Assembly: GCF_017356265.1 (NCBI RefSeq)
Contig: NZ_JAFNAW010000001.1
Coordinates: forward strand, 124,001-188,000
Length of the DNA: 64,000 bases
Direction of reading: 5' to 3'
From: Paracoccus fontiphilus
GTDB lineage: Bacteria; Pseudomonadota; Alphaproteobacteria; Rhodobacterales; Rhodobacteraceae
The notes under the pieces were generated by a model. The model was not told where the DNA came from, did no database searches, and saw only the letters and a program-made list of their open reading frames with translations. A program made the position numbers and the translations under genes. Below, in pieces: positions 14,676 to 18,861 of the stretch; within the stretch, counting starts at the first letter, position 1, and each line of letters begins with the position of its first letter.

Positions 14676-15131
14676 TCAGTCGCGCATGATCTGGTCCAGC
14701 CGCTCGCGTTCGGCCTGGCTCAGCGTTTCGGTTGTCTCGGGGCGGGCTTGCGCGCGGCCGCGCAGGAACCGCCAGGCCGACAGCAGGGCCAGCAGCGCCA
14801 TGACCGGACCGGCCAGCCACAGGACCAGGTTGCCGCCCCGGGCGCGCGGCTCGAACAGGACGAACTCGCCGAAGCGGTCCACCACCGCGTCGATCACCTC
14901 GTCGTTGCTGTCGCCGGCCACGATCCGCTCGCGCACGTAAAGCCGCAGGTCGCGGCTGATGGGCGCATTGGATTCGTCGATGTTCTCGCCCTGGCAGACC
15001 GGGCAGCGCAGCATTTGAGAGATTTCGCGCGCCCGCGCCTCTTGACCGGCATCGGGCAGCACCTCGTCCGGCTGCACGGCGAAGGCCGCGACGGGCAGAA
15101 GCAGGGCGATCAGAAGAACAAGCCGTCTCAT
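14676..15131 (-). CDS. ccmH: Cytochrome c maturation protein CcmH
   Basis: A 151-residue membrane-anchored periplasmic thiol-disulfide protein (also called CycL). A signal peptide (1-18) precedes the LRCPVCQ motif with Cys43 and Cys46, used to reduce apocytochrome c before haem ligation. A membrane helix lies at about 103-122 and the tail is cytoplasmic. Its ATG overlaps the stop of ccmF (ATGA), so both are translated from one mRNA. The E. coli-type CcmI extension is absent, as in the short CcmH form. Confidence 0.93.
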   Translation of the reverse strand: MRRLVLLIALLLPVAAFAVQPDEVLPDAGQEARAREISQMLRCPVCQGENIDESNAPISRDLRLYVRERIVAGDSNDEVIDAVVDRFGEFVLFEPRARGGNLVLWLAGPVMALLALLSAWRFLRGRAQARPETTETLSQAERERLDQIMRD

Positions 15132-17089
15132 TCCGCGGCCACCGCCCTGGCAGGCGCGGGCCGCGCCCCGGCCGCCACGCGATAGCGGCGGTCGGACAGG
15201 CTGATGATCCCGCCAAGCGCCATCAGCAGGGCGCCCGCCCAGATCCAGTTGGCGAAGGGCTTGATGTAGATGCGCACCGCCCAGCCTCCGTCGGCCTGCG
15301 CGTCGCCGATCACCAGATAGATGTCGCGGAAGATGCCGTTGTCGATCGCGGCCTCGGTCGTGGGCATGGCCTGGACGGGATAGACGCGTTTTTCAGGCTG
15401 CAGGACCGCGACCGGCCTGCCGCCCCGCGCAACCTCCATCGTCGCCGTGGTCGAGAGGTAGTTCGGCCCCTCGACCTCGTCCACGCTGGTCAGGGTGATC
15501 TCGTAATCCGCGACCTGGAACGGCTGGCCGACCTGGGCCACGCGGATGTCCTCGACCTGCCAGGCGGTCAGAAGGGCGATGCCGATGAAGGTGACGCCAA
15601 GCCCCGCATGGGCGGTGGCCTTGCCCCAGTCGGCGCGCGGCAGGCGCAGCAGCCGGGATAGGCCCGACTGGCCGGTCCGGTGAACCAGTTCCGCCAGCGC
15701 GCCGAAGATCATCCAGGCGCCAAGCCCCGCGCCGATCACCGCCAGCGCCGACCGCCCGGTCGAGACGGCCCAGACAAGCGCCATCACCGCCCCGGTCAGG
15801 GCCAGCGCCCCCCCCAGGGGCCGCATGGCCCGGCCGAGGGTCGCGCGCTTCCAAGGCATGATAGCCCCCAGCGGCAGGGCCAGCGCCAGGACGATCATGA
15901 AGGGCGTGAAGGCCTTGTTGAAGAAGGGTGCGCCGACCGACAGCTTGCGGTCCCACAGCAGTTCCGCGATCAGCGGCCACATGGTGCCGATGAAGACCAC
16001 GAAGGCCGCGACCGCCAGCAGCACGTTGTTGAGAACCAGGGCGCCCTCGCGCGAGACCGGCGCAAAGACCCCCTTCGCGGTCATCGAGCCTGCCCGCGCG
16101 GCATAAAGCGTCAGCGCGCCGCCCGTGAAGACGACCAGGATGGCCAGGATGAAGACGCCCCGTGCCGGATCGCTGGCAAAGCTGTGGACCGAGGTGATGA
16201 CGCCCGATCGCACGATGAACGTGCCGACCATGGAAAAGCCGAAGGCCATGATTGCCAGCAGGATGGTCCAGCTTTTCAGCGCCTCTCGCTTTTCGACGAC
16301 GATGGCGGAATGCAGCAGGGCGGCGGCCAGCAGCCAAGGCATGAAGCTGGCGTTCTCGACCGGGTCCCAGAACCAGAAGCCGCCCCAGCCCAGTTCGTAA
16401 TAGGCCCACCACGACCCCAGCGCGATGCCCACGGTCAGGAACATCCAGGCGGCCAGCGTCCAGGGCCGCACCCAGCGTGCCCAGGCGGCGTCCACGCGCC
16501 CGTCGATCAGCGCGGCGACCGCGAAGGAAAACGCCATCGAAAGGCCCACATAGCCCAGATAAAGGAACGGCGGATGGAAGGCCAAGCCGGGGTCCTGCAG
16601 CAGCGGGTTCAGGTCGCGCCCGTCGAAGGGCGGGCTTGCCAGCCGCAGGAACGGGTTCGAGGTGAAGATGATGAAGCCGTAGAAGGCCGCGCCGATGGCG
16701 GCCTGCACCGCCAGCACCCGCGCCCGCAAGGCAGGGGGCAGGTTGTCGCCGAAGGCCGCAGCCGCGGCCCCGAACAGCGACAGGATCAACACCCACAGCA
16801 GCATCGAGCCTTCGTGGTTTCCCCAGACGCCGCTGATCTTGTAAAGCATCGGCTTGGCCGTATGCGAATTCTCGTAGACCAGCTTCAGCGAGAAGTCCGA
16901 GGTGACGAAGGCCGCCGTCAGCGCCGCGAAGGACAGGCCGACCAGCAGGAACTGCGCCACGGCGGCGGGGCGGGCGCTGTCCATCCATCCTGCCCAGCCC
17001 TTCGACGCCCCGACCATCGGCACCACCATCTGATACAGTGATACCGCAAAGGCGAGGATCAGGGCGAAATGGCCGAATTCTGCTGTCAT
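15128..17089 (-). CDS. ccmF: Cytochrome c haem lyase subunit CcmF
   Basis: A 653-residue polytopic inner-membrane protein that attaches haem from CcmE to apocytochrome c. The tryptophan-rich WWD motif region (ELGWGGFWFWDPVENASFMP) and many membrane spans are visible. The ATG at 17089 (MTAEFGHFALI) is the usual family start; the longer open frame upstream has no support. It lies directly upstream of ccmH. ccmE, which hands over haem, is not adjacent but about 11 kb away after murI. Confidence 0.95.
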   Translation of the reverse strand: MTAEFGHFALILAFAVSLYQMVVPMVGASKGWAGWMDSARPAAVAQFLLVGLSFAALTAAFVTSDFSLKLVYENSHTAKPMLYKISGVWGNHEGSMLLWVLILSLFGAAAAAFGDNLPPALRARVLAVQAAIGAAFYGFIIFTSNPFLRLASPPFDGRDLNPLLQDPGLAFHPPFLYLGYVGLSMAFSFAVAALIDGRVDAAWARWVRPWTLAAWMFLTVGIALGSWWAYYELGWGGFWFWDPVENASFMPWLLAAALLHSAIVVEKREALKSWTILLAIMAFGFSMVGTFIVRSGVITSVHSFASDPARGVFILAILVVFTGGALTLYAARAGSMTAKGVFAPVSREGALVLNNVLLAVAAFVVFIGTMWPLIAELLWDRKLSVGAPFFNKAFTPFMIVLALALPLGAIMPWKRATLGRAMRPLGGALALTGAVMALVWAVSTGRSALAVIGAGLGAWMIFGALAELVHRTGQSGLSRLLRLPRADWGKATAHAGLGVTFIGIALLTAWQVEDIRVAQVGQPFQVADYEITLTSVDEVEGPNYLSTTATMEVARGGRPVAVLQPEKRVYPVQAMPTTEAAIDNGIFRDIYLVIGDAQADGGWAVRIYIKPFANWIWAGALLMALGGIISLSDRRYRVAAGARPAPARAVAAE

Positions 17090-17131: not shown

Positions 17132-17153
17132 AAGGGGGGAAAAGTCCCCCCTT
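17132..17153 (-). terminator. Terminator after the holin gene
   Basis: On the minus strand an 8-bp stem AAGGGGGG/CCCCCCTT with a 6-nt loop is followed by TTGC. It lies between the holin stop (17192) and the ccmF start (17089) and would end the endolysin-holin transcript. Confidence 0.6.
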
Positions 17154-17191: not shown

Positions 17192-17713
17192 CTATGCGCG
17201 CAGGCTCGCCAGCCAGTCGCGCAGCGCGGCGTTGTCCGAGAAGTCGTCATCCCCGTTCCGGACTGCCGCAACCTGCTGCGTCGTGACGGTGGTCCTGACC
17301 TGCCCGGCGGGCCAGACGCGGTGGCGGAAATGATGGGCCTCGCGGGCACCGAAGTAGAAGCCGACGATGGCGCCCAGCAGCCACCACAGGGGCTCGGGCA
17401 CCTGCTGCAGGCCCACCATGCGCAGGCCGAAGCCCGCGGGCTCGACCATGGCATAGATGAACAGGCCCATGGTCCCCAAGGCCAGCAGCGGCCGGGGAAG
17501 GCGGTTCAGGCCGTTGACGAAGCTGTCGAAGAAGCCGGGGCGAACCGCCTGGAACTCCTGCCCCAACTGGTTGATTGCGCGGGCATAGGCCTCTTCCTCA
17601 AGCTCCATCTTGCGGGTGGCGTTCTGGGTGAAGACCTCGGCCATGCCTGTCGCGGCGCTGCCAAGCGCGGTGACGCCCTGGCCCAGGCCGATGAAGCGGT
17701 CGATCATGCCCAT
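17192..17713 (-). CDS. Holin-family (3TM type) protein, likely GTA lysis holin
   Basis: A 173-residue protein of the holin_3TM type: an N-terminal helical region, two or three membrane segments (LLALGTMGLFIYAMVEPAG, PLWWLLGAIVGFYFGAREA) and a charged cytoplasmic tail. Holins open the inner membrane so an endolysin can reach peptidoglycan. It overlaps the endolysin gene by 10 bp. In Rhodobacter capsulatus an endolysin-holin pair placed away from the GTA structural cluster releases the gene transfer agent. This pair has the same composition and isolated position, and no phage structural genes are nearby. The GTA role is inferred. Confidence 0.75.
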   Translation of the reverse strand: MGMIDRFIGLGQGVTALGSAATGMAEVFTQNATRKMELEEEAYARAINQLGQEFQAVRPGFFDSFVNGLNRLPRPLLALGTMGLFIYAMVEPAGFGLRMVGLQQVPEPLWWLLGAIVGFYFGAREAHHFRHRVWPAGQVRTTVTTQQVAAVRNGDDDFSDNAALRDWLASLRA

Positions 17714-18315
17714 TTGGCGGTCCTTTCGCGATGCTCGGCCTCGGTCAGGTGGTAACGGGGACTGATGAACTCCTCGGCGCGGGTGATCCAGCCGCCCTTC
17801 CCGCCCGCCTTGGTGCGGGCATACTTGCGGCTGGCAGGGCGCTGATCGGCCAGGGAGTAGTAATAGTTCCGCCGGGCGATCCCGTAGGCATCGGCGAAGT
17901 GATCGGGGGCTGCCGCCGCCGCGTCATGCGCCGCCGCGATGGTCTGCGGGCCGATCGCGCCGTCGGCGGTCGCGGCAAAGCCCATCCGCGCGACCAGCCG
18001 CTGCAGGATCTTCACGGCATTGGCCCCGGCGTTCACATACATGTCGAAGACGCTGGCCTGCACCGTGTCCGGCAGTTCGGACAGGCGCGGACGCTTGAAG
18101 TAGTGTTCCACGAAGATCTGCTGCGCCTGCGCGCGGGTCAGCATCCGCACGTCCGTGGCATCGACGCGGCCGTCCTTGTTCAGGTCCAGCCCCAGGGATT
18201 CCATCGTCCCGACCGTGACGCCAAAGTTCGTGGCCCCGCCCGGATCGTCCGGATCGTTCACGTAACCGCCCTCACGCGCGACGATCTGCGCGGCGACTTC
18301 CTCAACGCTTGGCAT
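17704..18315 (-). CDS. N-acetylmuramidase endolysin (glycoside hydrolase 108 family)
   Basis: A 203-residue peptidoglycan hydrolase. The catalytic signature REGGYVNDPDDPGGATNFGV covers residues 14-33 with Glu15 as the likely catalytic acid. A helical peptidoglycan-binding region (MYVNAGANAVKILQRLV, ATADGAIGPQTI) follows. There is no signal peptide, which fits an endolysin needing a holin. The ATG at 18315 follows GAGGGTGCCC. A perfect CtrA box lies 46 bp upstream, matching the known CtrA dependence of GTA lysis genes in Rhodobacter. It could also belong to a decayed prophage, but no other phage genes are nearby. Confidence 0.82.
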   Translation of the reverse strand: MPSVEEVAAQIVAREGGYVNDPDDPGGATNFGVTVGTMESLGLDLNKDGRVDATDVRMLTRAQAQQIFVEHYFKRPRLSELPDTVQASVFDMYVNAGANAVKILQRLVARMGFAATADGAIGPQTIAAAHDAAAAAPDHFADAYGIARRNYYYSLADQRPASRKYARTKAGGKGGWITRAEEFISPRYHLTEAEHRERTAKWA

Positions 18316-18361
18316 GGGCACCCTCGTCCTGCAAATGAGGCACAAGGGTGCTGTGGCCGCG

Positions 18362-18377
18362 TTAACGGCCTGTTAAC
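18362..18377. promoter_or_regulatory. Perfect CtrA box (TTAA-N7-TTAAC) upstream of endolysin-holin
   Basis: TTAACGGCCTGTTAAC fits the CtrA consensus TTAA-N7-TTAAC exactly, and on both strands (GTTAAC at each end). It lies in the 75-bp gap between the cinA stop and the endolysin start, 46 bp upstream of the latter. Binding itself is inferred. Confidence 0.65.
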
Positions 18378-18390
18378 CGGCCGCGCGTTG

Positions 18391-18861
18391 CTAGCGGCTC
18401 AGCGCGTCCAGCAGCATCTGCAGCGCGTGTTCCACGGTAGCGGCGCGGACCTGGCTGCGGCCGATGGCGCCGAATTCGACGGTTTCGGTGCGGGTGCCGA
18501 AGGGTTCGGCGATGCCGAAGCAGACCCGACCTTCGGGCTTGTGTTCCGACCCCCCCGGCCCCGCGATGCCGGTGACGGCCACGGCGATCCCCGCGCCCGA
18601 GTTGCGCAGCGCCCCCGAGACCATTTCCGACGCGACCTGTTCGCTGACCGCGCCATGCGCCTCCAGCGTTTCCGCCCGCACGCCCAGCATCTGCTGCTTG
18701 GCGGCGTTGGAATAGGTGACGAAGCCCCGGTCCACGGCGTCGGACGATCCCGGCACCTCGGTCAGGGCGCCGATGACCAGCCCGCCGGTGCAGCTTTCGG
18801 CGGTGGCGATCAGCACGCCCCGCGCGCGGGCGGCGTCCAGGACATCGGAAGCCAGGGTCAT
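18391..18861 (-). CDS. pncC: CinA-family nicotinamide-nucleotide amidase (PncC type)
   Basis: A 156-residue protein matching only the C-terminal domain of CinA, which deamidates nicotinamide mononucleotide in NAD salvage. Motifs include TAESCTGGL (about residues 18-26), GFVTYSN and GIAGPGGS. Stand-alone single-domain forms are common (PncC/YgaD), so this is not a truncation. Its ATG overlaps the pgpA stop (ATGA). It ends the run purL-ispDF-pgpA-cinA, before the endolysin gene. Confidence 0.85.
   Translation of the reverse strand: MTLASDVLDAARARGVLIATAESCTGGLVIGALTEVPGSSDAVDRGFVTYSNAAKQQMLGVRAETLEAHGAVSEQVASEMVSGALRNSGAGIAVAVTGIAGPGGSEHKPEGRVCFGIAEPFGTRTETVEFGAIGRSQVRAATVEHALQMLLDALSR

Follow-up and report, generated by a model that had tools for sequence, protein, structure and literature searches.

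The muramidase and holin genes that lie between ccmF and a cinA-domain gene in Paracoccus fontiphilus are, in all likelihood, the detached lysis module of a gene transfer agent (GTA) of the Rhodobacter capsulatus type (RcGTA), placed behind a proposed CtrA-controlled operator. The preliminary description had arrived at a GTA lysis module from the layout of the locus, and this reading is now supported by the protein families of the pair, by a structural cluster and a gafA homologue elsewhere in the genome, by the placement of the muramidase among cellular genes, and by the operator itself. The module is of a known kind and is expected for the family; what goes beyond the known is a composite operator, in which a full CtrA-type site is joined to a second element. 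The locus lies in a window of 64,000 nucleotides (the whole stretch of DNA that was analysed; contig NZ_JAFNAW010000001.1, positions 124,001 to 188,000), and its features are collected in Table 1.

Table 1. Features of the lysis locus and of a second gene carrying the operator. Positions are those of the window unless a contig is given.
Feature	Position	Strand	Basis or remark
Palindromic CtrA-type site GTTAAC-N5-GTTAAC	18361..18377	both	TTAA-N7-TTAAC exact on either strand
GCAACGCGCG element, upstream part of the composite operator, candidate GafA box	18382..18391	-	promoter alignment
-10-like CACCCT, at a fixed distance from the second half-site	18345..18350	-	alignment of 43 promoter rows
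Holin-associated N-acetylmuramidase (GTA endolysin), 203 aa	17704..18315	-	ATG 18315, stop 17704
GTA-type holin, 173 aa	17192..17713	-	PF11351 GTA_holin_3TM, 96.6 bits (cut-off 24.8)
Intrinsic-terminator-like hairpin and T run, closing the lysis unit	17135..17151	-	sequence scan
ccmF, conserved downstream neighbour	15128..17089	-	PF16327, 392.7 bits
cinA-domain gene, upstream neighbour	18391..18861	-	PF02464, 178.5 bits
764-residue tail-spike-like (pectate-lyase-like) gene	C104:12809-10518	-	lone; operator, with one mismatch, 56 bases upstream

Profile searches place the muramidase in NF040573, 'holin-associated N-acetylmuramidase', at 358.8 bits (cut-off 240), with further matches to PF05838 (93.9 bits) and PF09374 (73.5 bits). 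Together with the ORF coordinates, the family profiles confirm what had been claimed from the sequence, namely a GH108-type endolysin and an overlapping holin between ccmF and cinA; the overlap is 10 bases. Three hydrophobic peaks are found in the holin, two with means of 1.45 and 1.18 and a weaker N-terminal one of 1.08, so that the '3TM' label leans on the family more than on the hydropathy profile, and by simple hydropathy an obvious signal peptide is absent from the muramidase. The terminator proposed to end the unit is present as a hairpin, with coordinates that replace the earlier 17132-17153. No phage structural or integrase genes surround the pair among the ORFs read over approximately 14.0-21.5 kb of the window, and the GTA structural cluster, from which the pair is detached, lies on another contig, C131. 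Comparison was made with 80 named lysis loci, 44 of Paracoccus and 36 of other genera as split by record title. A holin match follows the muramidase in all 80, and ccmF lies downstream on the same strand in 66 (41 of the 44 Paracoccus loci), with cinA found upstream in just four of the 80. The closest named muramidase, from Paracoccus acridae, shows 95% identity, in a search that may omit records of the source genome.

The earlier proposal that this organism probably makes or made a GTA agrees with what the rest of the genome holds. A genome profile search finds PF13547 (GTA_TIM) on C131, and 13 of the 16 further ORFs of the cluster there can be assigned to families of phage head, tail and packaging proteins: terminase, portal, protease, capsid, two connector or head-completion families, tail completion, tail tube, GTA-gp10, TAC, DUF2460, a hub with BR0599, and NlpC/P60. 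No family was matched by the three ORFs assigned to g1, g3.5 and g11. The ORFs stand in the RcGTA order, in which the genes are labelled g1-g15. The capsid protein scores 517 bits against RcGTA Rcc01687 and 150.6 bits against the next PDB capsid, and the distal tail protein 328.7 bits against Rcc01695 and 141.8 against the next; with PF13547 and the 13 matching ORFs, these scores mark the cluster as RcGTA-like. Directly after it comes a tail-fibre-like DUF2793 gene. The genome also holds a gafA homologue, which encodes 379 aa (DUF6456, 191.9 bits) on contig C127 beside a divergent DUF6477 gene; GafA homologues of R. capsulatus are annotated as DUF6456 or helix-turn-helix in the available part of one report (PMC9638019). 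Among 61 Paracoccus genomes, PF20057 is matched in all 61 and a small-terminase query in 60. Approximately 5 kb from the end of the GTA cluster, at C131:83829, a palindromic CtrA-type site lies 71 bases upstream of the gene for a Hint_2-domain protein.

Across the family, the muramidase and the GTA tend to occur together. Among 295 genomes, NF040573 is matched in 260 (249 above the cut-off, a few weak) and PF13547 in 259, some of the latter matches being multiple per genome or much weaker, and these may be prophages. By hand count, both are present in 242 genomes, the lysis gene only in 18, GTA_TIM only in 17 and neither in 18, for an odds ratio of 14 (p 5e-10, uncorrected for kinship). The 18 genomes with the muramidase but without GTA_TIM bear on another explanation, that the cassette is kept for a different use, such as programmed lysis or the release of vesicles or DNA, independently of GTA particles. 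Loci of seven of the 18 were read, and the pair lies beside ccmF in four, with no ccmF match in the stretch examined for the other three; the four that keep it there (G071, G076, G240 and G249) are nearly complete genomes and have a TTAAC half-site, and in these gp15 alone may be missing. Set against such a use are the co-occurrence itself (242 of 260), the operator that links the pair to a tail-spike-like gene, and the GTTGC/GCAAC element that links it to the gafA and g1 promoters, both described below; a role independent of GTA particles is thus unlikely, and service to the GTA is the preferred reading.

The muramidase-holin pair taken by itself was rejected as proof of a GTA, since viral contigs carry the same pair: 429 relatives of the muramidase were confirmed in IMG/VR, and among the best 80 of these loci a holin match is found in 39 and ccmF in none. 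The case for a GTA therefore rests on context, tree and operator. A collection of 50,697 phage records yields 469 matches to the muramidase, all below 60% identity, and no match to the holin at E 1e-5, and in the best 45 of the 80 fetched IMG/VR loci the muramidases are 55-69% identical to that of P. fontiphilus. The IMG/VR figures speak for a rival view, in which an ordinary prophage left the pair behind as a remnant or carried it as cargo, a phage lysis cassette unconnected to a GTA. The muramidase tree has 114 rows (the P. fontiphilus sequence, 80 cellular, and 33 distinct viral sequences from the best 45 viral loci), and all 45 Paracoccus rows fall on one side of a branch (100/97), nested in a clade (96/94) with eight other cellular rows and no viral row. 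For these eight sister rows, the stretch examined contains no ccmF match. Outside the clade that contains Paracoccus, viral and cellular muramidases are partly interspersed, and L089 pairs with a viral row. Best matches to ordinary prophages, which the preliminary description had named as grounds for abandoning the GTA reading, were not what was found, as the muramidase falls among cellular genes of Paracoccus in the tree and the holin is unmatched in the phage collection. The viral pairs resemble the module in their two families and in the position of the holin after the muramidase; they differ in their lower identity, in the lack of ccmF, and in standing outside the Paracoccus clade. With these results, a single GH108 match in the whole genome, and ccmF retained downstream in Paracoccus, a prophage remnant is very improbable and the detached GTA module is again the reading to be preferred.

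The CtrA-type site upstream of the muramidase is palindromic, and hence TTAA-N7-TTAAC reads on both strands (18361-18376, minus; 18362-18377, plus). A perfect CtrA box had been described 46 bp upstream; the site is indeed exact, and 45 bases separate it from the ATG. The chance expectation of the pattern in the window is 0.01, and two matches were obtained in none of 100 shuffles. In the whole genome (4.1 Mb), 13 strand matches fall in nine places, against 1+1 for the reversed control pattern. The perfect site was discarded as a sole GTA-specific signal, as among these nine places those on C156, C164 and C181 (twice) have no visible link to the GTA. In the named loci, the 200 bp that precede the muramidase contain TTAA-N7-TTAA in 42 of 44 Paracoccus cases and in none of the 36 from other genera, and the pattern is absent from the remaining 366,811 bp of the named Paracoccus loci. 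Spacings from N3 to N12 other than N7 were found upstream of the muramidase in none of the 44 Paracoccus loci, and the other genera have spacings N3 and N6 at two loci each of 36. The -10-like hexamer retains its A and its T in all 43 aligned rows (the source genome and 42 Paracoccus). In the other genera, TTAAC occurs within 100 bp upstream in 30 of 36 loci (mononucleotide shuffles, mean 2.2 and maximum 8), and because the reversed pentamer CAATT is found in 12 of the 36, more weight is given to the spaced core, a half-site followed by 9 bases and NANNNT, which is present in 29 of 36 (shuffle maximum 2) and in 40 of the 44 Paracoccus loci. As judged from these sequences, the downstream half-site and the -10 are common to Paracoccus and the other genera, and the upstream half-site together with GCAACGNNCG has apparently been either gained in Paracoccus or lost in the other genera.

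In the Paracoccus lysis promoter, the CtrA-type site is embedded in a composite operator, GCAACGNNCG-N5-TTAA-N7-TTAA; in P. fontiphilus its upstream element starts on the final base of the cinA stop codon. In 42 of the 43 aligned rows, GCAACG precedes the first TTAA by 15 bases; position -7 is C in all 43 and position -6 is G in 42. At the 44 named Paracoccus loci, the muramidase is preceded by an exact operator in 40 and by one with a single mismatch in four, and the best that the controls reach, upstream of the holin (44 loci) or of ccmF (41 loci), is five mismatches. With at most one mismatch it is found in 124 of 125 Paracoccus genomes, a set that probably shares species with the named loci used to define the pattern, and the reversed pattern gives one match in each of four genomes. 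Other Rhodobacteraceae examined mostly retain one half-site. Judged by title or by the opening of the abstract, the open-licence papers listed on Paracoccus GTAs and CtrA and on gafA promoter motifs contain no description of the operator or of a 764-residue spike. The composite operator may mark a late-GTA regulon, a candidate one, under CtrA and possibly GafA.

The identity of the second factor is suggested by an element, GTTGC/GCAAC, that is conserved in position in 27 of 30 gafA promoters (row L152, a locus without a gene start, having been dropped), 28 of 30 g1 promoters and 36 of 44 lysis promoters; 100 dinucleotide shuffles of each set reach at most 8, and the lysis promoters of other genera have it in 3 of 36. 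As a stand-alone signal it is weakened by controls, for it is found in one 20-bp slot upstream of the holin in 22 of 44 loci and upstream of ccmF in 7 of 41. The stretch upstream of the holin is muramidase coding sequence, and conserved coding can thus mimic the signal. Because the pentamer is weak alone, reliance is placed on the composite operator and on the agreement among the three promoters. GafA is reported, in the accessible portions of two papers, to bind the gafA, g1 and lysis promoters in R. capsulatus (PMC6363796, PMC9638019), which makes it the natural candidate for the second factor, and whether it is GafA that acts on the GCAACG element is, by this analogy, about evenly balanced. 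Slightly short of even is the alternative that GCAACG serves a different regulator, be it IHF-like, quorum-sensing or unknown. It draws on C. crescentus, where mutation of ACTATG, which is unlike GCAACG, disrupted the GafY element (PMC11150451), and on the g1 promoter of R. capsulatus, where GafA bound 76-125 bp upstream in the part of the account available (PMC6363796) and over the -10/-35 (PMC9638019), the conserved Paracoccus GTTGC lying farther out than that fragment, approximately 200 bp upstream of g1; the positional conservation in all three promoters that GafA reportedly binds argues instead for GafA.

A CtrA-type site of the lysis kind does not extend to gafA, for TTAA-N7-TTAA was found in none of the 31 gafA loci (one of them without a gene start). 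A TTAA-N6-TTAA spacing occurs in three of the 31, the P. fontiphilus copy being at -68, and the R. capsulatus-type site TTAAC-N6-GTAAC is placed at 65-71 bases in the gafA promoter by the available part of PMC6363796.

From the genes and their order, the structural cluster, the gafA homologue, and the conservation and spacing of the operator, we infer a course of CtrA and GafA binding, start site, timing, lysis and particle production. In cells in which the GTA is switched on, particles would be assembled from the cluster on the other contig. The single composite operator that precedes the muramidase would then be bound by CtrA, probably as CtrA~P, at the -35 region, and immediately before it by a second factor that may be GafA. 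Transcription would start roughly 20-25 bases before the ATG and stop at the terminator; the holin would then permeabilise the inner membrane, the muramidase would reach and cut the wall, and the cell would burst. Consistent with such a course, CtrA and GafA are both required for expression of the R. capsulatus endolysin, and the lysis promoter is bound by GafA, according to the portions available of PMC6363796. Furthermore, excerpts of PMC9638019 assign putative CtrA half-sites to the late genes of R. capsulatus (head spike, tail fibre and lysis), and putative GafA sites to two of the three. The CtrA phosphorelay (ctrA/cckA/chpT) is widely conserved in alphaproteobacteria, as stated in the accessible part of PMC8116508.

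The closest known counterpart is the rcc00555/rcc00556 pair of R. capsulatus, likewise an endolysin and a holin detached from the structural cluster. Its lysis promoter has putative CtrA half-sites (PMC9638019) and its endolysin depends on CtrA and GafA (PMC6363796), in both cases as given in part of the source, whereas the Paracoccus promoter has a full palindromic CtrA-type site of two halves together with GCAACGNNCG; the two systems are likened by layout and promoter. In Dinoroseobacter shibae, the endolysin and holin Dshi_1756/1757 are among the homologues of R. capsulatus GTA genes, most of them induced by quorum sensing (PMC6473078, in part). LypABC of Caulobacter also releases a particle related to RcGTA, but there, in the section of the source available, no holin-endolysin genes were found and the proteins have anti-phage immunity domains (PMC13236601).

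The operator offers a sequence handle for finding dispersed late GTA genes, and it would put a concrete switch, CtrA plus a second factor, before self-lysis, so that the timing of its own death in a GTA-producing cell becomes testable in culturable Paracoccus. If the proposal is true, scattered GTA genes could be read off the chromosome sequence by means of the operator. Other genes carry the operator too. Twenty further regions were chosen among the operator matches listed, and the genes behind the site were read by script: a 764-aa-type protein in 11, a BrnA-like protein (PF14384) in three, the muramidase in two (L229 and L237), an 833-aa protein in one, an AhpC/TSA protein in one, and no clear ORF in two. 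At one of the last two (G302), the 764-aa gene is present by homology search.

In P. fontiphilus, the 764-residue gene stands alone, with a dihydrolipoamide-dehydrogenase-like gene on one side and, on the other, a pyridoxamine-oxidase-like ORF and then an acetyl-CoA-synthetase-like gene. Matches to the protein are found in 58 of 61 Paracoccus genomes, and in three of these the match is split into pieces. Its promoters have the operator within two mismatches in 23 of the 30 best-matching loci, seven of which (that of P. fontiphilus included) share 89% identity or more with the P. fontiphilus protein and are not independent; 600 mononucleotide shuffles never fell below four mismatches. At the more distant loci the GCAACG half is often degenerate. 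Pectate-lyase and tail-spike matches are weak, the best over some 50-60 residues, and NCBIfam gives no match. A known phage protein was considered and set aside, as the spike has no match in the 50,697 phage records. A spike-like gene under the same operator fits a late gene class and, if confirmed, would be a new particle component, for which the open-licence literature searched, in the extracts available, gives no GTA link. A dedicated late-GTA operator, fusing a GafA box to a full CtrA site with a fixed spacing and timing lysis with a spike that decorates the particle or binds its receptor, and with a BrnA-like protein in part of the genus, is put forward tentatively, with a probability somewhat under one half. 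Viral contigs searched for the spike yielded three loci. Two of them, on the IMG/VR contigs L390 and L391, have the spike gene (58% identical) at the contig end, next to an integrase-like ORF, and the layout looks as if phages insert beside the spike gene.

The BrnA-antitoxin-like gene is found with the operator in part of Paracoccus (L228, L232, L234 and L270-L291), and in L234 it adjoins a serB-like gene. The operator lies within two mismatches in 16 of 22 loci, with eight weaker-matching loci left out, and the gene matches 37 of 61 Paracoccus genomes, many of them weakly; in the P. fontiphilus genome there is no close copy (best E 9e-6).

Further perfect CtrA-type sites in the genome stand close to other genes. 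One lies 42 bases upstream of a comM/YifB-like gene of the Mg_chelatase family (C13:86050), and the title of a cited paper connects CtrA-controlled GTA uptake in R. capsulatus with genes for DNA import. Another is found 62 bases upstream of the gene for a 308-aa calcium-binding-repeat protein that scores below family cut-offs (C122:33887), and an RTX homologue represses RcGTA, as a second cited title has it. A third, at C2:57659, lies 42 bases upstream of the gene for a glycosyltransferase with an MshEN domain.
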